Source: Anaerolineales bacterium
GTDB lineage: Bacteria; Chloroflexota; Anaerolineae; Anaerolineales; Villigracilaceae
NCBI GenBank assembly: GCA_021462845.1
Contig: JAJTXU010000019.1
Coordinates: forward strand, 1 to 36,359
Reading direction: 5' to 3'
DNA length: 36,359 bases
Shown: piece by piece, positions 12,941 to 24,131 of the stretch
Layout of the letters: every line of letters begins with the position of its first letter
Position numbering within the stretch: position 1 is the stretch's first letter
Position numbers and translations under genes: made by a program
The notes under the pieces: model-generated
The model's database searches: none
What the model was told of the DNA's origin: nothing
What the model saw: only the letters and a program-made list of their open reading frames with translations

Positions 12941-13048
12941 CCGTCAAAAAGGCAAACCCATCGTGAGGTGGGGACGCAAAGTCATGGATCTCCCAACTCT
13001 CTGCGTAGAAGTTGGAAGACCGCCAGACCGCCATCGTACGCATGGCGG
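12941..13048 (+). ncRNA. cyclic di-GMP-I riboswitch (GEMM-I) with expression platform
   Basis: The hallmark segments GGCAAACC (12951-12958) and GGGACGCAAAG (12971-12981) flank a perfect hairpin: CCCATC (12957-12962), GTGA tetraloop, GGTGGG (12967-12972). The second arm is GG-A-TCT (12986-12991, with the expected bulged A88) paired to AGACC (13017-13021), and it continues as CCAACT (12993-12998) with AGTTGG (13010-13015). The 3' GCCAGACCGCC matches the consensus end of the aptamer. Counting back from the invariant GCAAACC, the selectivity position 20 is G (12951), which favours c-di-GMP over cGAMP. CCGTCA (12941-12946) can pair with TGGCGG (13043-13048) as P1. The same TGGCGG can instead pair with CCGCCA (13028-13033), which includes the ligand-contacting C. 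This gives two exclusive states. Confidence 0.92.
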
Positions 13049-13141: not shown

Positions 13142-15451
13142 ATGAAAGCAAAGTGGTTTCATGTAACAATGATTGCGGCGCTTTTGGTGATCGCAGTCGT
13201 CCCTATCGCAAGCGCGGCGCCTCCCGTTCCAGCCGACCCTATGCTCGGCTCTGACGTCGATAATGCGCCGCATCCGCTTGGTGAGCGACAATACGCCGCC
13301 ACGTTGAGGGGGTTGGAGGCGAAGTTCCATGGCAAGGCGGGGGATGGTAGTATTTATTTGGACGGGGGCGAGCATGTGTACCCGTTCTATCGAGACCGCT
13401 ATGTCGAGTTGGAGCGCGAAGGCGAAGATACGATCTGGACCCTGCTGGGTCAGTTCGGCACCCAGGTCCATCCCTCCTATGGCGATGTAGCCGGCCCCCT
13501 GCACAATGAAATTCCCGAGCCCGATCGCGCAGTGGATAACACCACGATCTGGACAGAGGATTTCAGCCAAAGCATGTACAACAAAATGCTTTTTGACAGC
13601 ACCCCAGGCGCCAACTCGATGCGCAATTTCTACATCGAGCAGTCGTCCGGCCGGTATGCGGTCAACGGCACTGTAGAAGATTGGGTCACAGTTCCTTTTA
13701 ACGAGGCTCGCTATGGCGCAAATTATTGCGGAAGCATTGTCTGCGCCACAACCTGGCTTTTCATTCGGGATTCTGCATCGACCTGGTATAACAACCAGAT
13801 CGCCGCTGGCAAAACCCCCGCTGAGATCGATGCTTACCTGAGCCAATTCGATGTGTGGGATCGTTATGATTACGACGGCGATGCCAACTTCAATGAGCCT
13901 GATGGTTATATCGACCACTTCCAGGCTGTTCATGCCGGCGAAGGCGAGGAGACCGGTGGCGGCGCGCAAGGCACCAATGCTATTTGGAGCCATCGCTGGT
14001 ACGCCTTCTATACCCTTCAGGGAAGCGCAGGACCTGCGTTTAATAAATTGGGTGGTCTTCAAGTTGGCGGATCCAGCTATTGGATCGGCGATTACACGGT
14101 CGAACCTGAGAACGGCGGCGTAGGCGTATTTGCTCACGAGTTTGCGCATGACTTGGGCCTTCCCGATCTCTACGATACATCCGGTAACACCGGCGGCGCT
14201 GAAAACTCCACGGGCTTCTGGACGCTTATGTCCGGCGGTTCTTATGGCGCCTCTGGCAAAGCCGCTGACGGTATCGGCACCAAGCCTGTGCACATGAGCG
14301 CCTATGAGAAGCTCTACTTGGGTTGGTCGAATGCCGCGGTTGTGAACTACGATGAGACTGCTTTCTTGAAGATGGGTCCTGCCGAGTTCAACTCTGCCGA
14401 TCCGCAACAACTTCTTGTGCTTTTGCCCAACAAGGAAGTGGAAAGCTTCATCGGCGATCCCTATGCCGGAAGTTACTACTATTTCTCCGGCGCTGGGATG
14501 GACCTCGATAACACCATGACTCGTGATGTTACTCTGCCCGCGGGTACCGTATCACTTTCTGCGAAAGTGAACTATGACATTGAGGCAGAGTGGGATTATG
14601 CGTATCTCACGGTCAATGGCGCAAATGTAGCCACCAACCTTTCCACAAATGACGATCCGAATGGTCAGAACTTTGGCGAAGGCATCACCGGCGCGTCTGG
14701 CGGATGGGTGGATCTGACCGCCGACCTTTCAGCGTATGCCGGTCAGACAGTCACCCTCGGGTTCCGCTATTGGACCGATGGCGCCGTGGCAGGCACAGGC
14801 TTCTCGGTGGATGAAATCAGTATCACCGGCCTTCCTGTCGATGGCGGCGAGAGCGATGCAGGTTGGACGTACAGCGGCTTCTCGCTCACCACTGGTACCG
14901 TAACGCAGTCCTATGCCAATTACTACATCGCTGAATACCGCAAGTACATCGGGTATGACAAGTCTCTCAAGACGGGTCCCTACAACTTCGGTTTCCTCAA
15001 CGATCCGAACAAGGGAAATTGGGTTGAACACTACCCGTATCAAGACGGCTTGTTGATCTGGTACCTCGACTATTCCTTCGCGGACAACAACGTCGGCGAC
15101 TACTGCTCTGCCGGCACATGCGGTGGTTTCTACCTGCCGATCGACGCGCATTCCAACATGATGCTCCGCCCCGATGGAACGGTATGGCGCCCGCGTGTTC
15201 AGTCATTTGACTCGACATTCGGTGTCAACCGAGTTGACCGGATTTGTTTGAACGTCAACTCCGTCAAGAAGTGCTATGGCGGCTACCCGGGTAATTCCCG
15301 CTTCGACGATACGTTGGGGTATTGGGAAGCTCCCGATTCATCCATCGGCAACAACGGCTGGTCGAGCGTTCCGTTGCCCGGTGTTGGCGTTACCATCACG
15401 GTCGTAAGTGAATGGAACGGCTGGGCATACGTGCTCGTCGCGCCAAAGTAA
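13142..15451 (+). CDS. secreted M6-family metalloprotease (immune inhibitor A type)
   Basis: 769 aa. A Sec signal peptide (residues 1-25, ending ASA) is followed by a propeptide-like region (about 26-115) and a catalytic domain (about 120-440). The zinc motif HEFAHDLGLPDLYD places His332, Glu333 and His336 with the downstream Gly/Asp typical of M6. FNEARYG, YDYDGDANFNEPDGYIDHFQAVHAGEGEE and ENSTGFWTLMSGGSYG are further family signatures. The C-terminal half (about 445-700) contains a beta-sandwich (VTLPAGTVSLSAKVNYDIE to GFSVDEISITG) as in InhA. The enzyme should degrade extracellular proteins. AGAGGAG fixes the start. The mRNA leader carries a c-di-GMP riboswitch, so secretion of the protease should follow the motile/sessile switch. 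Confidence 0.95.
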   Translation: MKAKWFHVTMIAALLVIAVVPIASAAPPVPADPMLGSDVDNAPHPLGERQYAATLRGLEAKFHGKAGDGSIYLDGGEHVYPFYRDRYVELEREGEDTIWTLLGQFGTQVHPSYGDVAGPLHNEIPEPDRAVDNTTIWTEDFSQSMYNKMLFDSTPGANSMRNFYIEQSSGRYAVNGTVEDWVTVPFNEARYGANYCGSIVCATTWLFIRDSASTWYNNQIAAGKTPAEIDAYLSQFDVWDRYDYDGDANFNEPDGYIDHFQAVHAGEGEETGGGAQGTNAIWSHRWYAFYTLQGSAGPAFNKLGGLQVGGSSYWIGDYTVEPENGGVGVFAHEFAHDLGLPDLYDTSGNTGGAENSTGFWTLMSGGSYGASGKAADGIGTKPVHMSAYEKLYLGWSNAAVVNYDETAFLKMGPAEFNSADPQQLLVLLPNKEVESFIGDPYAGSYYYFSGAGMDLDNTMTRDVTLPAGTVSLSAKVNYDIEAEWDYAYLTVNGANVATNLSTNDDPNGQNFGEGITGASGGWVDLTADLSAYAGQTVTLGFRYWTDGAVAGTGFSVDEISITGLPVDGGESDAGWTYSGFSLTTGTVTQSYANYYIAEYRKYIGYDKSLKTGPYNFGFLNDPNKGNWVEHYPYQDGLLIWYLDYSFADNNVGDYCSAGTCGGFYLPIDAHSNMMLRPDGTVWRPRVQSFDSTFGVNRVDRICLNVNSVKKCYGGYPGNSRFDDTLGYWEAPDSSIGNNGWSSVPLPGVGVTITVVSEWNGWAYVLVAPK

Positions 15452-16244: not shown

Positions 16245-17282
16245 GTGCGAAACATCTTCCAAAGAGCCGCTTTACTGCTGATATTCTTTCTCAATGCCTG
16301 TGGAGGAACTGAACCATCCGTCACAGTCACACCTTTGCCATCAGAGACCCCGATCATCCCGCCAACGCTTACCGCAACACCGACAATTCCCCTGGCGGTA
16401 TTGATCCTGCCCGCAAACCTCGACCCTGAAACAGCGAACCTCTACCAAACCACTGTCTACGATCTAACACAGAGTTCGGGGTATCGTTTCCAGGTGCGAG
16501 ATTCCATCACCGAGGCAGACTTGGCGGAGCCGGGACTAAAGATCGTGATCGCGCTTCCGCCCGATCCCGGTATTGCAGTTTTAGCCGTCGCCGCGCCGCA
16601 CGTGCAATTTCTTTCGATCAATATCCCGGGCGTTCTACCCGGCGGTAACATTAGCACGTTGGGAGGCGAAGGTCAGACCGGCATCGCCGCCTTCCTCGCT
16701 GGCTATACTGCCGCGCTCCTCACCGAAGATTATCGTATCGGCATGATCTTACCCAAAGGGAACGCCGACGCGCAACAAGCCTCAACTGCTTTTCGTAACG
16801 GCATGGCATTTCATTGCGGATTATGCCGCCCGATCTTCTTCCCCTCGTTCTGCCTCGTGGAAAACCTGCAATCGTGTTACCCCCAATATGTTGAAATCCC
16901 GACGGATGAAGATCCCGCCCGCTATGGTCCATACGCCGATTATCTCATCCTCCAACGAGAGGTGGATACGCTTTTCGTTTACCCGGACGTGGCAGACCCA
17001 GACCTGCTGACATATATCGGCACGACTGGTGCGCTCCTCATTGGCACATTCACTCCCGACGAACGCCCCGGCGGCTGGGTGATGACGATTCAACCGGATG
17101 TGATCAAAGCCATTCAAAATGCCTGGCCCCAACTGATTGCAGGGCAGGGAGGCGTCACGGTTCAATCCCCCTTGGGGCTGAGTGACGTGGACCCCAGCCT
17201 GCTCAGCCCCGGGAAGCAGAAAGATGTGCAGGAAATGCTCGATAAACTTCAACAAGGGTTGATCAATACCAACAACCCGTGA
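16245..17282 (+). CDS. Bmp-like periplasmic-binding lipoprotein
   Basis: 345 aa from GTG at 16245, chosen because GGAGAG precedes it and it gives a clean lipoprotein leader (lipobox FLNAC, Cys19). An ATG at 16119 would add residues unlike a signal peptide. After a Thr/Pro linker, the mature protein has the alternating fold of type-1 periplasmic-binding proteins of the Bmp group: VLILPANLDPE, KIVIALPPDPG, VQFLSINIPG, GIAAFLAGYTAALLTEDYRIGMILPKGNADAQQASTAFRNGM, VDTLFVYPDVADPDLL. The AFLAGYxAAL and RIGMI segments are characteristic. Family members bind nucleosides or small signals for ABC uptake. No ABC genes are adjacent, so it may be a sensor or orphan receptor. Four Cys are clustered at CGLC, FCLV and SCYP. 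Confidence 0.78.
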   Translation: MRNIFQRAALLLIFFLNACGGTEPSVTVTPLPSETPIIPPTLTATPTIPLAVLILPANLDPETANLYQTTVYDLTQSSGYRFQVRDSITEADLAEPGLKIVIALPPDPGIAVLAVAAPHVQFLSINIPGVLPGGNISTLGGEGQTGIAAFLAGYTAALLTEDYRIGMILPKGNADAQQASTAFRNGMAFHCGLCRPIFFPSFCLVENLQSCYPQYVEIPTDEDPARYGPYADYLILQREVDTLFVYPDVADPDLLTYIGTTGALLIGTFTPDERPGGWVMTIQPDVIKAIQNAWPQLIAGQGGVTVQSPLGLSDVDPSLLSPGKQKDVQEMLDKLQQGLINTNNP

Positions 17283-17291
17283 TTGAATCCA

Positions 17292-17319
17292 ACACTCCCG
17301 TGAATGCTCACGGGAGTGT
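17292..17319. repeat. strong stem-loop between convergent genes
   Basis: ACACTCCCGTGA (17292-17303), ATGC loop, TCACGGGAGTGT (17308-17319): a 12-bp perfect stem. Neither side carries a T-tract, so it is not a standard intrinsic terminator. It could still protect mRNA 3' ends of the Bmp-like and receiver genes. Confidence 0.6.
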
Positions 17320-17380
17320 GGACAAAGAAGGAGGAGGAGAGAAACGGCAGGCGTAAAACCTGTGTGCGTGAAGGATAGGA

Positions 17381-17779
17381 CTAACGGGCTTGAGCAAGCC
17401 ATGCCATGGCTTTGACCACCAGCACAGCCGGGTTGACCGGTTTGAGCAGGTATTCATCCGCCGCCGACTCGTTGGCTTCGATCGCCAATTGGGCGGTATT
17501 TGCCGAAACAAGCATGATGATGGGACCGCGACTGGCTTTGCGCAACTCGCCGATCAGTTCCATACGCTCGTCCCGCGTAAGTTGAATATCCACCAGCACG
17601 AGGGACGGGGCAACCAGACGGGCGGCTTGAACCGCATATCGCGGGCTTGATTCGCTGAGTACGATACAATTCCGCTGGCTGAAGAGGGCGTCCCATGCCG
17701 CGACTGAATTCGGTTGGTCAGAAACGATCAATACGGTGTGGAGGGGGATTGTGTTTGTGTCGGTTTTCCAGGCTACCAT
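17381..17779 (-). CDS. stand-alone response regulator receiver domain
   Basis: 132 aa, a single REC domain without output domain. The phospho-acceptor Asp64 sits in LVLVDIQL, the conserved Lys113 in YLLKPVNP, and the Ser92 switch residue in IIMLVSANTAQ. The usual acidic pair near the N-terminus is reduced to one acidic residue (S20-D21), which may weaken metal binding. Single-domain receivers act by protein contact or as phosphate sinks. No kinase is adjacent. The orphan kinase at 4760 is a possible but unsupported partner. The gene is divergent from the GNAT operon promoter, about 25 bp away. Confidence 0.9.
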   Translation of the reverse strand: MVAWKTDTNTIPLHTVLIVSDQPNSVAAWDALFSQRNCIVLSESSPRYAVQAARLVAPSLVLVDIQLTRDERMELIGELRKASRGPIIMLVSANTAQLAIEANESAADEYLLKPVNPAVLVVKAMAWLAQAR

Positions 17780-17802
17780 TTTGGCTTTGCCTTTCTAGTA
17801 TC

Positions 17803-17832
17803 TTGACGGAGAATCGACCGGCGTGTTACACT
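17803..17832 (+). promoter_or_regulatory. promoter of the GNAT operon
   Basis: TTGACG (17803-17808), 18 bp, TACACT (17827-17832). The start of transcription would be near 17839, about 30 nt before the leader ORF. Confidence 0.6.
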
Positions 17833-17859
17833 CGCGCCTATCAAATTTTCAAGGAAGGA

Positions 17860-17928
17860 GGCGCGACCCATGTTTTTCAGCAAGATCGTTGTCGGTACAC
17901 AAGACTTCACCCATTCCGGGATCGCGCC
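17860..17928 (+). promoter_or_regulatory. structured leader enclosing the ribosome-binding site of the leader ORF
   Basis: GGCGCGACCC (17860-17869), which contains the end of the AAGGAGG site and abuts the ATG, is complementary to GGGATCGCGCC (17918-17928) near the end of the leader ORF, with one bulged base. Opening or closing this stem would control ribosome loading on the leader. A further copy of TCGCGCC lies at 17832-17838, at the edge of the predicted transcript. Confidence 0.5.
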
Positions 17929-17941
17929 TGTAACTCGTTAG
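17870..17941 (+). CDS. candidate 23-residue leader peptide
   Basis: ATG at 17870 is preceded by AAGGAGG about 9 bases upstream, and the frame ends at TAG (17939-17941). The product starts MFFSKIVVG and ends SGIAPVTR, with no signal peptide or known family. The ORF lies between a good promoter and an intrinsic terminator placed directly in front of the first GNAT gene, the position typical of attenuation leader peptides. The codons are not enriched for one amino acid, so classic amino-acid attenuation is not suggested. Stalling by an antibiotic or other ligand at the ribosome is possible (inference). It could alternatively be a small functional protein or part of a structured RNA. Confidence 0.5.
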   Translation: MFFSKIVVGTQDFTHSGIAPVTR

Positions 17942-17967
17942 GATACGATAACGTTTAACGTATTCAA

Positions 17968-18000
17968 CAGCCACGGCGTCCCCGTGGCTGTTTTTATTTA
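17968..18000 (+). terminator. intrinsic terminator/attenuator in front of the GNAT array
   Basis: CAGCCACGG (17968-17976), CGTCC loop, CCGTGGCTG (17982-17990), then TTTTTATTTA. It is a textbook intrinsic terminator. Only 20 bp separate it from the first GNAT start (18021), and that gap has no promoter, so the operon must be reached by read-through. Confidence 0.85.
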
Positions 18001-18020
18001 TTTCACAGGAGAATGCAACC

Positions 18021-18599
18021 ATGTTCGACATTCAAACACAATTATTCGAAGGCAAAGACGTTCGTTTCGGTCCCATTGACCATGAAAAGGACCCGGAGAT
18101 CGAATCGAAATGGACGCACGACTCGGAGTTCATGCGAATGTACAGCCTCGACCCGGCGCGTCCCATGTCGGCGGCGATGGTGAAGAAGGCGTATGAAAAA
18201 CTCGAGAAAGAGATCGAAGAAGAGAAGAACATGTTTTACTTCACCATCCGCGCCCGCGACGATGACCGCTTGATCGGCAAAGCGCAGGTCAGCCGCATCG
18301 AGTGGTCGAACGGACATGGATGGGTCGAGTTGGGATTCGGCTCCGCGGACGATCAGCGCAAGGGCTTTGGAACTCAGGCATTGGGAATGTTATTGCGCTT
18401 CGGCTTCGGCGAGTTGAACCTGCACCGCATCAGCGCGCGCGTGCCGGAATACAACGAAGGCGCGATTGCCCTGTTCAAGAAACTGGGCTTCACGGAGGAA
18501 GTCCGCCGACGCCAGGCATTGGACCGTGATGGTCGCCGTTGGGACCTGTTAACTTTCGGCTTGTTGAAAGATGAATGGACGAGACAGGCTGAGGCGTAG
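18021..18599 (+). CDS. GNAT N-acetyltransferase 1 (RimJ/RimL-like)
   Basis: 192 aa, single GNAT domain. The acetyl-CoA pyrophosphate loop reads QRKGFG (about residues 112-117), preceded by the beta strand WVELGFG and followed by the ELNLHRISARV strand and YNEGAIALFKKLGF, the order of Acetyltransf_3 proteins. RimJ/L relatives acetylate N-termini of ribosomal proteins, other proteins or small molecules including antibiotics. The acceptor cannot be read from sequence. AGGAGA precedes the ATG. It is the first of five consecutive GNAT genes and is reached only by read-through of the terminator at 17968-18000. The N-terminal part (WTHDSEFMRMYSLDPARPMS) aligns by eye with the second and third copies. 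Confidence 0.93.
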   Translation: MFDIQTQLFEGKDVRFGPIDHEKDPEIESKWTHDSEFMRMYSLDPARPMSAAMVKKAYEKLEKEIEEEKNMFYFTIRARDDDRLIGKAQVSRIEWSNGHGWVELGFGSADDQRKGFGTQALGMLLRFGFGELNLHRISARVPEYNEGAIALFKKLGFTEEVRRRQALDRDGRRWDLLTFGLLKDEWTRQAEA

Positions 18600-18608
18600 G
18601 AGGAAGCG

Positions 18609-19178
18609 ATGAAAGACTTATTACGCGGAGAATTGATCCGCTTTACAGCCGAGGAGCCGGAGACTCTGGCGCGTTCGGAAGTCCGCTGGCAGACGGATAC
18701 GGAATTCCATCGGCTGGCTGATATTGACCCCGCCATGCTGTTTTCGTCGAAGCGCATCCAACAGCGAGCGGAGGAGCGGATCGAAAAAGGATTCATGCCA
18801 AAGCGCTATGCGTTTTATGTGCGCGCGCTGGCAGATGACCAACTGATCGGCTTTCTCGTCCTGTGGCTGGACTTGGTCCATAACGAAGTTTGGGTGGGCT
18901 TGGGAATCGGCGAGCGCGATTTTTGGGGCAAAGGCTTCGGCACCGATATGATGAAGGTGGCTTTGCGATACGCGTTCACGGAGCTCAATGCGCATCGCGT
19001 GTCGCTGGGTTTGCATTCGTACAATGAACGCGCAAAACGTTCGTACGAGAAAGCAGGCTTTCGTTATGAAGGCACCACCCGCGAAGACGCCCGGCATGGA
19101 GACGTGTACACGGATGGTTTGTGGATGGGCATCCTACGCGAAGAATGGCTGGCGATGCAGAACGGAGAAAGCAAATGA
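18609..19178 (+). CDS. GNAT N-acetyltransferase 2 (RimJ/RimL-like)
   Basis: 189 aa, single GNAT domain. VGLGIGERDFWGKGFGTD carries the acetyl-CoA loop in the DYWGKGYG style common in RimJ-type enzymes, followed by TELNAHRVSLGLHSYNERAKRSYEKAGF. The nine-base gap from gene 1 holds AGGAAG. Gene 3 starts inside its stop (ATGA), so the two are translationally coupled. Close similarity to gene 3 (ITRL/LIRF start, GERD-WGKG-G core, GxREEW end) points to tandem duplication. Substrate unknown. Confidence 0.93.
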   Translation: MKDLLRGELIRFTAEEPETLARSEVRWQTDTEFHRLADIDPAMLFSSKRIQQRAEERIEKGFMPKRYAFYVRALADDQLIGFLVLWLDLVHNEVWVGLGIGERDFWGKGFGTDMMKVALRYAFTELNAHRVSLGLHSYNERAKRSYEKAGFRYEGTTREDARHGDVYTDGLWMGILREEWLAMQNGESK

Positions 19179-19747
19179 AAGATATTTACACCGGCGACAT
19201 AACGCGCTTGATCGTGTTGGATGCGAAGGAAGGCGCAAAAGCGTTTGCGCGTTGGGATCGTGACTCGGAGTTCAGGCGGTATTTGGATAGCGGCGCCGCG
19301 AACCTGATCTCGTCAAACAAGATTGAAAAAGAGATCGAGGAGGATGCGAATGAAAATTCACATCGGTTTTATCCCTTTGGCGTCCGCGCGTTGACAGGCG
19401 ATGCGATGATCGGCATCGTTGACTTGTTCGTCTATAACTGGACTGGACGCGATGCTTTCGTGGGGATCGGTTTTGGCGAGCGCGACTATTGGGGCAAAGG
19501 CTATGGCGCGGATGCGATGAACCTGATCCTGCGCTTTGCCTTTACCGAATTGAACCTGCGGCGCGTGACGCTCAACGTGTTCGAATACAACCCGCGCGCG
19601 ATCCGTTCGTATGAGAAGGTCGGGTTCCGCCACGAGGGAAGGATTCGGCAGGCGCTGAACAAGGAAGGCAAACGCTGGGACATGCTCTTCATGGGCATCC
19701 TGCGTGAAGAATGGATGGAACAAAATGACTACAAAACTACAAACTAA
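19175..19747 (+). CDS. GNAT N-acetyltransferase 3 (RimJ/RimL-like)
   Basis: 190 aa from ATG at 19175. This start is chosen because it overlaps the previous stop by four bases and has GGAGA upstream; an ATG at 19121 would extend into gene 2. The core VGIGFGERDYWGKGYGADAM binds acetyl-CoA, followed by TELNLRRVTLNVFEYNPRAIRSYEKVGF. It ends ILREEWMEQNDYKTTN and overlaps gene 4 by 23 bases. It is a paralogue of genes 1 and 2. The acceptor substrate is unknown. The tight overlaps suggest balanced co-production of all five proteins. Confidence 0.93.
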   Translation: MKDIYTGDITRLIVLDAKEGAKAFARWDRDSEFRRYLDSGAANLISSNKIEKEIEEDANENSHRFYPFGVRALTGDAMIGIVDLFVYNWTGRDAFVGIGFGERDYWGKGYGADAMNLILRFAFTELNLRRVTLNVFEYNPRAIRSYEKVGFRHEGRIRQALNKEGKRWDMLFMGILREEWMEQNDYKTTN

Positions 19748-20729
19748 CGAAACGCTTCTCGACTCAACGATCAGCCTGCGTTTTGCAAGATGGGACGATC
19801 TCTCCGCTGTGACACAACTCGTCTATGACGTGTGCGAAGCGGACGGCGATACCACCGTCGCTGTGACCGAGGAAGAGATGGCGCTCGAATGGAAGACGCC
19901 CGGCTTCAATATCGAAACGGATGGCATCGTCGCCGTCACGCAGGATGGGCGCATCGTGGGCTTCGAAGAGTTCGCAGACGAACACGAACATGCCAAACTC
20001 CGCACGGATGGATACGTCCACCCGCAGTTCAAGGGATTGGGAATCGCCACGTCCATGATGCAAGCCGTCGAAGAACGCGCCCGCAAAGAGATCGCGCTGG
20101 CTGAGCCGGATGTCCGTGTGTGTTTGCAAAGCACATTGGATAACCGCGACGAAAGCGGAAAAAGCGTGCATGAAAGCGAAGGGTACAAGGTCATTCGTTA
20201 TCACTGGCGGATGCAGGCAGATCTCGATGCGCCTCCGCCTGTTGTGACCTTTCCCAGCGGCATTGAATTGCGTCCTTTTATCAAGGGCGTGCATGACCGC
20301 GCGGTTTGGGAGGCGCACAACGAATCCTTCCGCGACCATTGGGGACATCACGATGTTCCATTCGACCGCTGGGTACTCCGCAAGTTCAGCAGATCAGACT
20401 TTGACCCAACACTGTGGATGATCGCGTGGGACGGCGAACAGATCGCGGGTTTCTCGCAGAACCGCTACCGCATGGGCGTCGGCTGGATCGGTACGCTGGG
20501 AGTCCGCCGTCCGTGGCGGAAAAAGGGACTGGGTTACTCGTTGTTGATCCATTCCTTCGGCGAGTTCTACAAACGCGGCACCAAGACTATCGGTCTTGGC
20601 GTGGATGCGCAAAGTCCCACAGGCGCCACGCGCTTGTATCAAAAAGCGGGCATGCGCGCCGCCAGCGAATTTGTCACGTATGAAAAAGAGTTGCGTCCCG
20701 GACGCGAACTCGAAGAGCATGATGAGTAG
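19725..20729 (+). CDS. tandem-GNAT acetyltransferase 4
   Basis: 334 aa from ATG at 19725 (MTTKLQ). It holds two GNAT domains, as in MshD-type proteins. The N-domain (about 15-160) has the acetyl-CoA loop PQFKGLGIAT. The C-domain (about 175-320) has RPWRKKGLGYSLL, then KRGTKTIGLGVDAQSPTGATRLYQKAGM. Both loops look intact, whereas in many tandem GNATs one is degenerate. MshD acetylates cysteinyl-GlcN-inositol in mycothiol synthesis, but the other mycothiol genes are absent here, so that role is not supported. The start lies inside gene 3, so translation is probably coupled. Gene 5 has the same architecture and C-terminal ending (YEKELRPGREL / YEKEFRPGKEL). Confidence 0.93.
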   Translation: MTTKLQTNETLLDSTISLRFARWDDLSAVTQLVYDVCEADGDTTVAVTEEEMALEWKTPGFNIETDGIVAVTQDGRIVGFEEFADEHEHAKLRTDGYVHPQFKGLGIATSMMQAVEERARKEIALAEPDVRVCLQSTLDNRDESGKSVHESEGYKVIRYHWRMQADLDAPPPVVTFPSGIELRPFIKGVHDRAVWEAHNESFRDHWGHHDVPFDRWVLRKFSRSDFDPTLWMIAWDGEQIAGFSQNRYRMGVGWIGTLGVRRPWRKKGLGYSLLIHSFGEFYKRGTKTIGLGVDAQSPTGATRLYQKAGMRAASEFVTYEKELRPGRELEEHDE

Positions 20730-20738
20730 GAGAATAAA

Positions 20739-21773
20739 ATGAACACACTTCTTGAAAAACAAAATATCCTTTCGCTCCCTGCGGGCTATACCGCGCGCGG
20801 CGGAAGCATTGACGATTACAAGATCGCTTGCGAGTTGTTGAACCTTCATTCCATGCACATGAACGGGAGCGTGGATCTGAACGACCCCGAATTGCTCCGC
20901 CTGGATTGGCAGAACGAAGGCTTCACGCCAGAGACTGACTTGCGTTTGATCTTCGACGAGCAGGGAACCCTTGTCGCGTTCATCGAATGTTGGATGACGC
21001 AACAACCGCCTGTTCACCCGTGGATCTTTGGATGCGTGCATCCCGATCATTGGGGCAGGGGAATCGGAAGTCATATTAATTCATGGGCAGAGGATCATGC
21101 GTATATCGCGTTGGAGAAATGCGCGCCCGAACTCCGTGTTGCGCCGCGCACAGGCGTAGAAGCGCATAATGAAACAGGCGTTGCGCTGATGGAGGGACTC
21201 GGATGGAAACACATCCGCTCGTTCTATCGCATGGTAACAGACTTGGATTCGCCTCCGACTGAACCGTCATTGCCAGAGGGGATCGTCATTCGCCCGTTCG
21301 ATCCCGAAACCGAACTAGAGGAAGTCTATCGAACATTTGTGGACACGTTCAACGATCACTTTGGGTTCATCGAACAGCCGTTTGAAAAAGGCTTTGCTGA
21401 ATATAAACATAACATGGTCGAAGAGCCCGGCTACTCCCCAGAGATGTGGTTCGTGGCAATGGATGGTGACAAGATGGCTGGCATTTGCATTTGCCGCCGC
21501 GAAGATACTGAAGATCCCGAATCGGGCTGGGTGGGCGAACTGGGTGTGCGCCGCGCCTATCGCAAACGCGGGCTGGGTCTTGCTTTGCTCAAACATGCCT
21601 TCGCCGCGTTCCATGCCGACGGCAAAAAGCGCGCAGGCTTGGGCGTGGATGCGAGCAGTCTCACCGGCGCGTTGAAACTGTATGAAAGCGCAGGCATGCG
21701 AGTCCAGCGTCAATTCAACCAATATGAAAAAGAATTCCGCCCGGGCAAAGAATTGGCTGTAGAATCGTTATAG
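20739..21773 (+). CDS. tandem-GNAT acetyltransferase 5
   Basis: 344 aa, two GNAT domains. The N-domain loop is PDHWGRGIGSH (about residue 106). The C-domain carries WVGELGVRRAYRKRGLGLALLKHAF, then KKRAGLGVDASSLTGALKLYESAGM. The C-domain is clearly paralogous to that of gene 4 (GLGVDA-S-TGA--LY--AGM, YEKE-RPG-EL). The N-domain contains an extra Cys/Trp-rich stretch (FIECWMTQQPP). AGGAG in the nine-base gap sets the start. It is the last of the five-gene array. The AAACCTG inverted repeat follows. Confidence 0.93.
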   Translation: MNTLLEKQNILSLPAGYTARGGSIDDYKIACELLNLHSMHMNGSVDLNDPELLRLDWQNEGFTPETDLRLIFDEQGTLVAFIECWMTQQPPVHPWIFGCVHPDHWGRGIGSHINSWAEDHAYIALEKCAPELRVAPRTGVEAHNETGVALMEGLGWKHIRSFYRMVTDLDSPPTEPSLPEGIVIRPFDPETELEEVYRTFVDTFNDHFGFIEQPFEKGFAEYKHNMVEEPGYSPEMWFVAMDGDKMAGICICRREDTEDPESGWVGELGVRRAYRKRGLGLALLKHAFAAFHADGKKRAGLGVDASSLTGALKLYESAGMRVQRQFNQYEKEFRPGKELAVESL

Positions 21774-21792
21774 GCTATACTCAATGTAATAA

Positions 21793-21888
21793 AAACCTGA
21801 CAGGTTTCCGCGACGCCGCCATTGATCAAGAATCTCTGATGCGCGTTTGCTTCTTCCGACTCAGCGCTTGAAAAAACCTGTCAGGTTT
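21793..21888. repeat. paired AAACCTGACAGGTTT inverted repeats
   Basis: AAACCTGACAGGTTT (21793-21807) and its exact reverse complement AAACCTGTCAGGTTT (21874-21888) are 66 bp apart. Each is itself a near-palindrome (AACCTG-N-CAGGTT). The second lies just before the ribosome-binding site of the next gene. They could be operators, a long-stem hairpin that limits transcription out of the GNAT array, or a dispersed repeat. Confidence 0.75.
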
Positions 21889-21908
21889 ATTTTGCTCAAG
21901 GAGACCCC

Positions 21909-22268
21909 ATGAACGTCAAATGTTCGTTTTGCCAAACGCCTTACACCCTCAGCCGCGTGCAAATGCTCGACGCCCTGCAAGAGATGGACGCGCATAAACT
22001 GACTCACTACGACGCGCACTGTCCGCGCTGCCGGCGCGCCACGCGCGTCGAGCGCAAACGCATGGAAATGTTCTTCCCGAACTGGCGCGAGGCGTTGAAA
22101 CAATTCGAGGCGGAGATGCAGGCTCACCCGCAGAGCGAAGCGCCTCTTCCCCAGCCTGAGTCTGCTCCTGTTGCCCCAGCCGAATCAAATCCTCAGCCGG
22201 CTGCCGCAAAGAAATCGGCGGCTGAGAAAAAAACATCGGCTAAAAATAAGGCGGCAAAAAAGAAATGA
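21909..22268 (+). CDS. Cys-pair (zinc-ribbon-like) protein with Lys/Ala tail
   Basis: 119 aa. The N-terminal half has CSFCQTPY (Cys5, Cys8) and HCPRCRRAT, two CxxC pairs that would bind one zinc ion. The second half is low complexity: a Pro/Gln/Glu stretch, then PAAAKKSAAEKKTSAKNKAAKKK-like Lys/Ala repeats at the C-terminus. The tail resembles that of the nucleotidyltransferase at 9089 and would favour nucleic-acid or ribosome contact. AAGGAG supports the start. Its stop overlaps the HAD gene (ATGA), so the two are coupled. I do not recognise a named family. Confidence 0.8.
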   Translation: MNVKCSFCQTPYTLSRVQMLDALQEMDAHKLTHYDAHCPRCRRATRVERKRMEMFFPNWREALKQFEAEMQAHPQSEAPLPQPESAPVAPAESNPQPAAAKKSAAEKKTSAKNKAAKKK

Positions 22269-22870
22269 GCATTCGCGCTGTTTTTTTCGACCTCGGCGGA
22301 GTTATCGTCCGCACGGAACATCAGGCTCCGCGGCAAAGACTCGCGGCGCAATTCGGCATGGATTATGAAGACATCGAGAAACTTGTTTTCGGCGGCGGAG
22401 CGAACAACTCTGCGGCGCGCGCCTCGGTGGGGGAGATCACCGAACAGGAACACTGGCTGAATGTGATGAAAGCGCTCAAACTGCCAGCCAGCGATGTTGC
22501 GCGCGTGCGCGAGGAATTTTTCGGCGGCGATATCATCGATCGCAACCTGCTGGAGTTTATGCGCTCGCTCAAGCCGAAGCGCAAAGTGGGAGCCATCTCC
22601 AACGCATGGGACGGTTTGCGCGCCTACATGGAGCGTGAAAAATTCGCCGATGTGTTCGACTCCATTGTCATCTCGGCGGAGATTAAAGTAGCGAAGCCTG
22701 CCGAGAAGATCTATCGCATCGCGTTGGAACAATTGCAAGTTGAGCCGAACGAAGCCGTGTTCGTGGACGATATGCCCGCAAACATCGAAGCGTGCGAAAA
22801 GATCGGCATGAAGGGAATCCTTTTCACGGATGCCGAATCTGTGTTGAAACAACTCAAAGCCATTCTCTAG
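22265..22870 (+). CDS. HAD-superfamily hydrolase, subfamily IA
   Basis: 201 aa. Motif I is FFDLGGVIV; the second Asp of the usual DxD is replaced by Gly, as in epoxide-hydrolase-like and some YihX-type HADs (DLGGV/DLGNV). Motif II is AISNAWDG, motif III is the Lys of KVAKPAEKIY, and motif IV is VFVDDMPANIE. The cap domain is small and helical (about 20-85). YihX-type members are sugar-phosphate phosphatases. The substrate here is unknown. The start overlaps the previous gene by four bases. Confidence 0.92.
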   Translation: MSIRAVFFDLGGVIVRTEHQAPRQRLAAQFGMDYEDIEKLVFGGGANNSAARASVGEITEQEHWLNVMKALKLPASDVARVREEFFGGDIIDRNLLEFMRSLKPKRKVGAISNAWDGLRAYMEREKFADVFDSIVISAEIKVAKPAEKIYRIALEQLQVEPNEAVFVDDMPANIEACEKIGMKGILFTDAESVLKQLKAIL

Positions 22871-22872
22871 CT

Positions 22873-22900
22873 TCCAATCTCTAATCTCCCATCTCTTGTA
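22873..22900. repeat. heptamer repeat before the MFS gene
   Basis: Units TCCAATC, TCTAATC, TCCCATC, TCTTGTA with a strict 7-nt period. The probable TTG start of the transporter lies inside the last unit. Confidence 0.7.
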
Positions 22901-24131
22901 TCGCCCCTCCCCATCCCGCGTTTATCTCTTCATTGAGTTCTCCGCTTCCGCGTGCTTCTCGATGATGTTCGTCGTCACGTCGCTGTATGAGGCAACTGTT
23001 GCGGGGCTGACCCCTGTTCAATTGATCCTCGTTGGCACTGCGCTTGAAATTTCCGCGTTCGTGTTCGAAGTGCCGACGGGCATCGTCGCCGATGTGTATT
23101 CGCGCAGGCTTTCGATCATCATCGGGTACATATTGATGGGCGTTGGTTTCCTTGTGGAAGGACTCTTCCCCGCGTTCATTCCGATTCTCCTTGCGCAAAT
23201 CATCTGGGGGTTGGGTTACACCTTTACCAGCGGCGCAACGCAAGCATGGATCACCGACGAGATCGGTGAAGACGATGCCAATAAATTATTTCTGCGCGCA
23301 ATGCGAGTCGGTTTATACGCATCATTGATCGGCATGGCGCTTGCCGCGCTGGTCGGCGTGAATAATGTTGCCATGCCGATTCTAGTTGGCGCGATCGGCG
23401 TGTTGTTGATCGGCGTGATCCTGATCTTCATCATGCCTGAGAAAAATTTCCACCCGACGCCGCGCGAAAACCGCAACACCTGGCAACACATGTGGCATAC
23501 CTTTCAACAAGGCGCGGATGCGGTTCGCTCCAAACCGCGCTTGATGAGCATCGTCGGCGTTGGCTTGTTCTATGGAATCTACAGCGAAGGGTTTGACCGT
23601 CTGTGGGTCAAACATTTGTTGGATCAGTTCAGCCTGCCGATTTTGTTTGGGAGCAACCAAGTGGGGTTCTTCGCCGTCCTGCGCGCGGCTGGCACGCTTC
23701 TGACCATCCTTGCGGTTCACGTAGCCGAAAAACGCGTCGACTCGACCAACTCCATCGCGATCGGTCGCGCGATGCTTGTTGTCACGGGGCTGATCTCAGT
23801 TGCCATGCTGGGGTTCGCCCTCTCGCCGTTCCTTCTCCTCAGCCTTGGGCTGTATCTCATCATCGACGCGTTGCGCGACGTTCGCATTCCCTTGCAAACC
23901 GCATGGGTGAATCAAAAACTGGATTCGAAAGTCCGCGCCACAGTGCATTCGATGTTTGGTCAAGTGGATGCGATTGGGCAAATGTTGGGAGGACCCGTTG
24001 TCGCCGTTATCGCCGTGCTAGGTTCCACCCTCGCTTCCCTCGTGACGTCGAGCCTGCTTCTCACCCCCGCGCTTTTCTTCGTCAGCCGCGCCAACTCGAT
24101 ATCTGAGGGCGAAGCGGGCGATAAAAATTAG
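22896..24131 (+). CDS. MFS transporter
   Basis: 411 aa with 11-12 predicted membrane helices. The loop between helices 2 and 3 reads PTGIVADVYSRRLS, the major-facilitator motif A (GxxxDxxxRR). Family: drug or metabolite efflux-type MFS, substrate unknown. The start is uncertain. TTG at 22896 keeps the first helix, but no Shine-Dalgarno sequence precedes it and the sequence there is a heptamer repeat. The frame is open further upstream into the HAD gene, and the first ATG (about 22961) would truncate helix 1. It follows the GNAT array, Cys-pair and HAD genes on the same strand without a clear terminator. It converges with the next gene, one base apart. Confidence 0.9.
   Translation: MYRPSPSRVYLFIEFSASACFSMMFVVTSLYEATVAGLTPVQLILVGTALEISAFVFEVPTGIVADVYSRRLSIIIGYILMGVGFLVEGLFPAFIPILLAQIIWGLGYTFTSGATQAWITDEIGEDDANKLFLRAMRVGLYASLIGMALAALVGVNNVAMPILVGAIGVLLIGVILIFIMPEKNFHPTPRENRNTWQHMWHTFQQGADAVRSKPRLMSIVGVGLFYGIYSEGFDRLWVKHLLDQFSLPILFGSNQVGFFAVLRAAGTLLTILAVHVAEKRVDSTNSIAIGRAMLVVTGLISVAMLGFALSPFLLLSLGLYLIIDALRDVRIPLQTAWVNQKLDSKVRATVHSMFGQVDAIGQMLGGPVVAVIAVLGSTLASLVTSSLLLTPALFFVSRANSISEGEAGDKN

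Follow-up and report, generated by a model that had tools for sequence, protein, structure and literature searches.

A predicted ribosome-sensing transcription attenuator precedes a GNAT acetyltransferase array in Anaerolineae and belongs to an RNA family that also heads other resistance-type operons

The genome of an Anaerolineales bacterium (GCA_021462845.1) contains, on contig JAJTXU010000019.1, five consecutive genes for GNAT-family acetyltransferases (GNAT1 to GNAT5) that are preceded by a short leader open reading frame (ORF) and an intrinsic terminator, T1; the stretch analyzed, positions 1 to 36,359 of the forward strand, is referred to here as the window. The region upstream of this array can be predicted, with a probability that we put at roughly 0.8, to function as a ribosome-mediated transcription attenuator of the BmrB type that senses stalled ribosomes, and expression of the GNAT genes would probably be triggered by a block of the ribosomes, such as one caused by antibiotics.

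The leader and the array lie on the plus strand. A consensus scan detected a promoter-like site (17803..17832; TTGACG, an 18-nt spacer and TACACT with the TG of an extended -10 element), which is followed by segment 1 (17855..17869), consisting of the Shine-Dalgarno (SD) sequence AAGGAGG from position 17855 plus CGCGACCC. The leader ORF (17870..17941) has 23 codons, translates to MFFSKIVVGTQDFTHSGIAPVTR followed by a stop codon, and is predicted, from the frame conservation described below, to be translated. Segment 2 (GGGATCGCGCCTG, 17918..17930; GTGCGCC in most relatives) lies near the end of this ORF and can pair either with segment 1 or with segment 3, the 5' half and loop of T1. Between the ORF and T1, the centroid fold places a small hairpin that begins at the leader stop codon (17941..17965), and similar hairpins are seen by eye in relatives. 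T1 itself (17966..17992, encompassing segment 3) has an 11-pair stem and a U-run. An earlier note, made from the window sequence alone, had reported a 23-codon ORF with a strong ribosome-binding site followed by an intrinsic terminator before the first ATG; both features are present, with the T1 stem ending 28 nt upstream of the ATG at 18021 (the note gave 20 bp for the terminator). This distance leaves little room for a normal promoter, and no promoter-like match, one of two features that the note had named as speaking against its proposal, lies between T1 and GNAT1 in the consensus scan of 16500-23000, which is a scan and not a mapping. The two promoter-like matches in that region, both on the plus strand, are located before the leader and at the end of GNAT5 (2.8 expected by chance).

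We propose that the leader ORF would be translated while RNA polymerase nears T1. If the leader is free of ribosomes, segment 1 would pair with segment 2, T1 would form and the GNAT genes would remain off; a free ribosome that has reached the stop codon would cover segment 2, with the same outcome. A ribosome held early in the leader, for example by an antibiotic, would cover segment 1 and leave segment 2 free to capture the emerging 5' half of T1, and the polymerase would continue into the GNAT genes, the products of which would in turn probably contribute to inactivating compounds that act on ribosomes or to protecting the translation machinery. We infer that antitermination of this kind occurs in the cell.

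The leader and the array are conserved together. A search with GNAT1 as query gave at least some match (E up to 0.001) in 130 of the 150 relatives examined, and 60 loci from 58 genomes were fetched. The order GNAT1-GNAT5, small Cys-containing protein, HAD-family hydrolase and MFS transporter is recognizable in the genus and in a large part of the family, individual genes having been gained or lost, and upstream of GNAT1 the relatives contain a promoter, an AAAGGAG-type SD, a short ORF, a stop codon and one or two terminator-like hairpins. A covariance model trained on GNAT leaders only (R1) matches the leader in the window and, with order and strand checked, the region upstream of GNAT1-like genes in 53 of the 60 loci, which is the result of the comparison of relatives that the earlier note had called for. 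Forty-one of these 53 loci belong to the training set and 12 are outside it, including L062, which is nearly identical to a trained one. The seven loci without an R1 match are L073, L076, L082, L088, L091, L092 and L093, the last three of which contain a single GNAT3-like match and lack the array. In at least three loci (L066, L084, L086 = L193, L200, L201), a gene for an ABC-2 ATPase or an MFS protein is located between the leader and GNAT1. T1 has the most pairs among nine terminator-like matches in 16500-23000, where 7.7 are expected by chance; because the number of matches is near that expectation, conservation is the real test of T1. The promoter pattern TTGAC-N14-20-TGwTAnAnT occurs just upstream of 70 of 107 leaders, compared with none of 2045 background windows. 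As a separate observation, in L189 (genome G011, of the same genus) the leader stands straight before a GNAT5-like gene followed by the genes for the Cys-containing protein and the HAD hydrolase, and GNAT1-GNAT4 are not seen.

The pairings were examined in two alignments, A1 with 42 leaders and A2 with 79 leaders of GNAT and ABC operons (A2 left out L063, in which a later hairpin had been picked, and 15 near-duplicates). T1 is paired in 99.7% of the cells of A1 and 99.2% of those of A2, with double changes at four and at all eight of its eight pairs, respectively. For P1, the pairing of the SD region (segment 1) with the GTGCGCC segment (segment 2), the corresponding values are 93.0% and 91.1%, with double changes at two and four of eight pairs, and none of 500 shuffles of A2 reached any of the whole-structure measures. 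Segment 2 is complementary to the 5' half and loop of T1 in 93.7% of the cells of A1 and 89.7% of those of A2, as opposed to at most 57.1% and 47.2% when the segments are slid. Taken over each set, segment 2 and T1 half from the same leader also fit each other better than permuted partners, both in 43 GNAT leaders (-13.67 vs -12.77 kcal/mol) and in 51 other leaders (-13.86 vs -13.02 kcal/mol), and the same holds for the pairing to T1 in the 40 copies of a wider set introduced below (-20.98 vs -18.64 kcal/mol; the test there covered the whole ORF interior up to T1, and in some loci, such as L297 and L299, the best duplex is not at segment 2). The own pairs were reached in 0 of 5000 permutations in each of these sets and in all 94 leaders pooled. 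The partners in the segment 1:segment 2 pairing are likewise better than permuted ones (94 pooled; 43 GNAT, 51 others), and L305 and L313 combine an altered segment 2 with a T1 altered to match. Thus, an intrinsic terminator lies between the leader and the genes, and the complementarity and permutation tests point to alternative pairings that are predicted to be mutually exclusive.

R1 matches are present in 112 of the 150 relatives, with one to five and mostly one to three copies per genome. Among 59 further copies, hand-picked from the listed matches rather than random, 29 and 14 are located before ABC exporter genes of two types, 13 head GNAT/MFS operons, two precede ABC-F genes and one (L182) is unclassified. 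In the ABC exporter class, both adjacent half-transporters are seen in 40 of 43 loci; L146 and L167 stop at the contig end and L181 has one exporter gene. In the pair L147, from the same genome as the window, PF00664 and PF00005 are found in both genes, and these sister targets are predicted to encode heterodimeric ABC exporters. With 455 bits, the ABC-F protein of L180 exceeds the cut-off for ribosomal-protection-like ABC-F (380). The same genome also contains copies on contigs C295 and C297 before exporter genes, one of each type (C295 ends inside the first gene), a weaker leader match before a RIO1-like kinase gene (L281, C321:8544-8682, E 3.8e-5) and a weak match (L282, C268:26016-26145, E 0.0015) before an ABC-F gene (442 bits, cut-off 380) that is followed by a GNAT gene. 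A side observation concerns L181, where the first ORF encodes 1065 aa, with an N-terminal part that appears GNAT-like by eye and a long C-terminal extension, and is followed by the ABC exporter gene.

The wider set comprises 40 loci, also hand-picked with the strongest first, of which two are from the genome of the window and 38 from genomes of the class outside the order. The targets are an ABC-2 ATPase, mostly with GNATs behind it (nine loci), a HAD-like protein, mostly with a tandem GNAT (six), an ABC exporter pair (four), ABC-F close behind the leader (four), an ABC-F-like match only 1.5-1.8 kb away (three), an MFS-like match 1.1-1.3 kb away behind a first gene without identification (three), a GNAT array directly (two), a RIO1-like kinase (two, L281 and L313), a tandem GNAT followed by an MFS protein (one), RsgA (L305), an Acetyltransf_9 GNAT (L298) and an exporter-like protein recognized by a distant match (L311). 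A GNAT (L284) and an ABC-2 permease (L314) were read by eye only, and in L286 the contig ends before any gene. The presence of RsgA and RIO1-like kinases suggests that ribosome-assembly factors are targets as well, and the exporters, ABC-F proteins, GNATs, RsgA and RIO1-like kinases taken together suggest blocked or damaged ribosomes as a common theme. The proposal of the earlier note that the leader has the design of inducible resistance genes is strengthened by the location of the same leader family before ABC exporter pairs, ABC-F genes and other GNAT operons.

The family is concentrated in the class Anaerolineae. In a phylum sample of 301 genomes, R1 matched 24, namely 21 of 25 in the own order and three of 276 outside it. 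A wider model built from both leader kinds, GNAT and ABC (R2), matched 170 of 396 genomes of the class (own order, 33 of 37; remainder of the class, 137 of 359) and 38 of 400 genomes in a phylum sample (32 of 36 in the order, five of 19 elsewhere in the class and one of ~345 outside the class); these splits by kinship were counted from the listed rows, with unlisted genomes taken as sorted by kinship. A pattern scan of named genomes identified 70 contigs, 67 of which are titled as Anaerolineae, genera of these, Chloroflexi or Chloroflexota. Six of the 70 were checked with R1: L273, from a metagenome-assembled genome named Chloroflexus sp., is a true match, and neither L230 (Microbacteriaceae) nor L275 (Desulfobacteraceae) is matched by R1; both look like chance and were rejected as family members. 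Rfam 15 gives no match to this leader at the gathering level, either in the window or in 20 leader-bearing loci of relatives, and small-RNA models of Rfam score far below threshold over the leader; a riboswitch or other described RNA at this position was discarded on these grounds.

Within the leaders, which as a rule have 22-33 codons, the ORF typically ends near the peptide motif RSAPxxR; the window has GIAPVTR instead. When the frame is set by the first ATG after the SD and the peptide is ignored, the start codon and the motif share an open frame in 100 of 107 leaders, with 12 distinct lengths (five leaders fetched twice were counted once, and one more, L202, received no assignment). In four of the seven exceptions (L070, L078, L089 and L090), the motif is in another frame that is shared and also open. 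An earlier frame count, 95 of 96, was not used, the ORFs having been chosen by AP, AS or AL near the peptide end, which is partly circular. No leader ORF was called by the script rule in L179, L180, L182, L194 and L202, and no T1 by rule in L175 and L183; L173 was fetched without a leader match.

The conservation of this peptide end raises the question of whether the peptide has an activity of its own, either by arresting the ribosome as a nascent chain, for which the C-terminal RSAPxxR would be needed, or in trans, like peTrpL. In a codon table for 94 of 97 leaders (L075, L183 and L193 excluded), the first Arg of RSAPxxR is conserved in 81 of 94 despite variation at the third codon position, and the last Arg, which is among the C-terminal residues conserved beyond the RNA segment, in 71 of 94 through AGG and CGN codons, suggesting some constraint at the peptide level. 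A leader peptide with a role in the regulation of multiresistance has also been reported in Sinorhizobium meliloti (PMC7298713). Against such a role, the Ala codon is GCG in 94 of 94 counted leaders (the pattern requires Ala, so only the choice of codon is informative) and the Ser codon is AGT in 80 of 94, and this near-invariance indicates a constraint on the RNA. Furthermore, the window itself departs from the motif, four leaders use another frame at the motif, and in 23 of the 40 wider copies the script found no RSAP-like motif, many of these having variants such as TSAP or RIAP. We therefore regard an active leader peptide as unlikely.

The effect of a ribosome was modeled by folding RNA that ends before the 3' arm of T1. 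For the window, the number of segment 2:T1 pairs increases from 0.11 to 6.06 when the leader start is masked, and a ribosome at the stop codon gives 0 such pairs. At least four segment 2:T1 pairs form under the early mask in 41 of 43 GNAT leaders and 50 of the 51 remaining leaders, and with a ribosome at the stop codon in none of the 43 and none of the 51.

Several results weigh against attenuation by this switch. With no ribosome at all, at least four segment 2:T1 pairs form in 28 of 43 GNAT leaders and 26 of the 51 remaining leaders, so in over half of the leaders segment 1 is no clear winner. When the U-run is included, T1 of the window is formed at equilibrium to 0.99-1.00 at every ribosome position, an early ribosome lowers T1 in the 94 leaders just from 0.98-0.99 to 0.94-0.96, and shuffling segment 2 in the GNAT set gives the same T1 value of 0.94. 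Covariation of segment 2 with T1 is weak pair by pair (one double-change cell in A1, no better than shuffles, and five in A2, reached by 8 of 500 shuffles), and the permutations retain the shared ancestry of the leaders. The pairing in the window is itself weak by the short measure (-9.0, with 15.5% of shuffles as good), and its segment 2 averages slightly better with T1 of other leaders (-9.8), as do the segments 2 of L034, L043 and L083; over a longer stretch the value for the window is -15.2, a figure without a shuffle control. Since T1 with its U-run is favored at equilibrium, antitermination would have to be a matter of kinetics and timing. A thermodynamic proof of antitermination was accordingly abandoned: without the U-run, T1 in the window falls to 0.07 under an early ribosome, but with it remains at 0.99-1.00.

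The same equilibrium preference for T1 at any ribosome position would fit a constitutive terminator that damps expression, with the leader ORF incidental. This explanation appears improbable, given that the SD, the open frame, and segment 2 with its match in T1 are conserved together, and that a second terminator-like hairpin is frequent in GNAT leaders (34 of 43, vs 13 of 51 other leaders, by an automatic rule with a few false calls). In the GNAT leaders, the 5' arm of the second hairpin is complementary to the 3' arm of T1, which may let both terminators open together; by the same rule, no second hairpin is present in the window, L034, L043 or L051. An attenuator that senses a shortage of charged tRNA through the Arg, Ser, Ala or Pro codons close to the end of the leader, as the conserved RSAPxxR end with its first Arg kept through varied third positions might suggest, is very improbable, because the conserved codons lie in or beside segment 2, where a stall would cover segment 2 and favor termination, no codon runs are seen in the leaders, the targets are exporters, ABC-F proteins, GNATs, RsgA and RIO1-like kinases rather than biosynthetic genes, the wider copies L305 and L313 retain the segment 2:T1 pairing without RSAP, and L070, L078, L089 and L090 read the motif in another frame.

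The array behind the predicted attenuator comprises three single-domain genes, GNAT1 (18021..18599; PF13302, 70.0 bits, cut-off 25.4), GNAT2 (18609..19178; PF13302, 56.1 bits) and GNAT3 (19175..19747; PF13302, 67.6 bits), and two tandem-domain genes, GNAT4 (19725..20729; MshD-like architecture) and GNAT5 (20739..21773), each with two stretches matching PF00583. All five proteins exceed the Pfam gathering cut-offs of these GNAT families, and the genes (18021-21773) are separated by two 9-nt gaps and overlap by 4 and 23 nt, in agreement with the tightly packed row of five that the earlier note had described. Its statement that all seven acetyl-CoA loops appear intact stands for the GxG, found in seven of seven domains, but not for the preceding classical R/Q, which is present in only four, with W in the other three. 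GNAT4 scores 64.4 bits against TIGR03448 (cut-off 163.1), and all listed matches of the five proteins to NCBIfam models with curated cut-offs (AAC(6'), RimJ/RimL-type, spermidine acetyltransferase, MshD) are far below them; the closest solved structures of GNAT1 and GNAT4, the two that were searched, are assorted GNATs. For these reasons the substrates cannot be named, an attempt that we gave up, and acetylation targets are considered here as possibilities only, as is the suggestion of the earlier note that the proteins may use different acceptors or work as complexes. In a tree of 66 GNAT sequences, the GNAT1 position forms one clade (25 tips, support 1.0) and position 3 another (17 tips, 0.75), whereas position 2 is not a clade (0.63); a recent duplication as the origin of the array was rejected on this basis, and the array looks old, with gains and losses.

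Behind the array, on the same strand, are genes for a small Cys-containing protein without a Pfam match (21909..22268), the HAD-family hydrolase (22265..22870) and the MFS transporter (22896-24131), homologs of which are located behind the array in many relatives; the first two are putative operon members only. The transporter resembles TetA(P) (304 bits, cut-off 750) and Tet(40) (283 bits, cut-off 800), below both cut-offs. In the gap between GNAT5 and the Cys-protein gene (21785-21890), inverted AAACCTG(A/T)CAGGTTT-like copies were read by eye. Elsewhere in the window, the sole Rfam gathering match is a c-di-GMP-I-GGC riboswitch (12942-13036, plus strand; 60.8 bits, cut-off 59), and about 100 nt after it starts a 769-aa ORF (13142-15451) that appears to encode a secreted M6-type metallopeptidase.

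YjhQ of Escherichia coli is a GNAT, and the WhiB7/WblC regulon includes the GNAT Eis, an ABC-F protein and exporters. The comparisons that follow extend as far as the excerpts of the cited papers go. The bmrCD operon of Bacillus subtilis is induced by chloramphenicol, erythromycin and lincomycin and needs translation of the BmrB leader (PMC4191407), and the same type of mechanism is proposed here by analogy, the comparison being one of layout and not of homology. BmrB is a 53-codon ORF with the terminator inside it and is described for one operon, whereas the Anaerolineae leaders have a terminator after the stop codon of a shorter ORF and constitute one RNA family with several unlinked operons per genome, class-wide (PMC4191407). 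The toiL upstream ORF of topAI-yjhQ in E. coli is a proposed sensor of several classes of ribosome-targeting antibiotics, with differing stall positions; it differs in acting through translation control and then Rho-dependent termination, in a toxin-antitoxin operon, in contrast to the intrinsic terminator here (PMC12121999). BmrB and toiL are experimental precedents for the sensing of ribosome stalling, and the inducers in Anaerolineae are predicted to be conditions that block ribosomes. The WhiB7/WblC regulon of Actinobacteria links ribosome-targeting antibiotics to a set of resistance genes through a protein regulator acting in trans, whereas each operon here has its own RNA element (PMC10727445, PMC7157823). 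The uORFC-6-1 motif of Bacillales, a structured RNA containing an upstream ORF that is located mainly upstream of hflX and proposed to respond to stalled ribosomes, is a different RNA with one main target gene and mainly in another phylum (PMC8632094). No paper on this leader family in Chloroflexota was among the titles listed in a search of open-licence PubMed Central, and a class-wide multi-operon RNA family with GNAT targets was found neither in Rfam nor among the open-licence PubMed Central matches listed.

The type of mechanism is known; what has no counterpart in these sources is one RNA family, spread over many operons of a class, that includes GNAT arrays among its targets. The earlier note had considered the array itself as the strongest candidate for an undescribed system; what stands is a reusable attenuator family, of which the array is one target. 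We consider it somewhat better than an even chance that in Anaerolineae a single homologous cis-acting RNA family, carried operon by operon, constitutes a translation-stress regulon in which exporters, ABC-F proteins, GNAT arrays, RsgA and RIO1-like kinase would each be transcribed only if a ribosome has stalled in the leader of that operon. Antibiotic-sensing attenuators have so far been described operon by operon in model bacteria, to judge from the excerpts considered, and here members of one homologous family lie before many unlinked operons of resistance type throughout a class of Chloroflexota that is largely uncultured. If the prediction is correct, the family would resemble the T-box, with ribosome poisoning as the signal, and would stand in place of a protein hub of the WhiB7 type, and the drug response would be connected to ribosome assembly through the copies that precede RsgA and RIO1-like kinase genes. 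The RNA model would then serve as a tool for finding new resistance and ribosome-protection genes by position and would provide a direct handle on the function of the GNAT arrays, which would represent an uncharacterized arm of the response, directed at the detoxification of compounds that act on ribosomes or at modification of the translation machinery.

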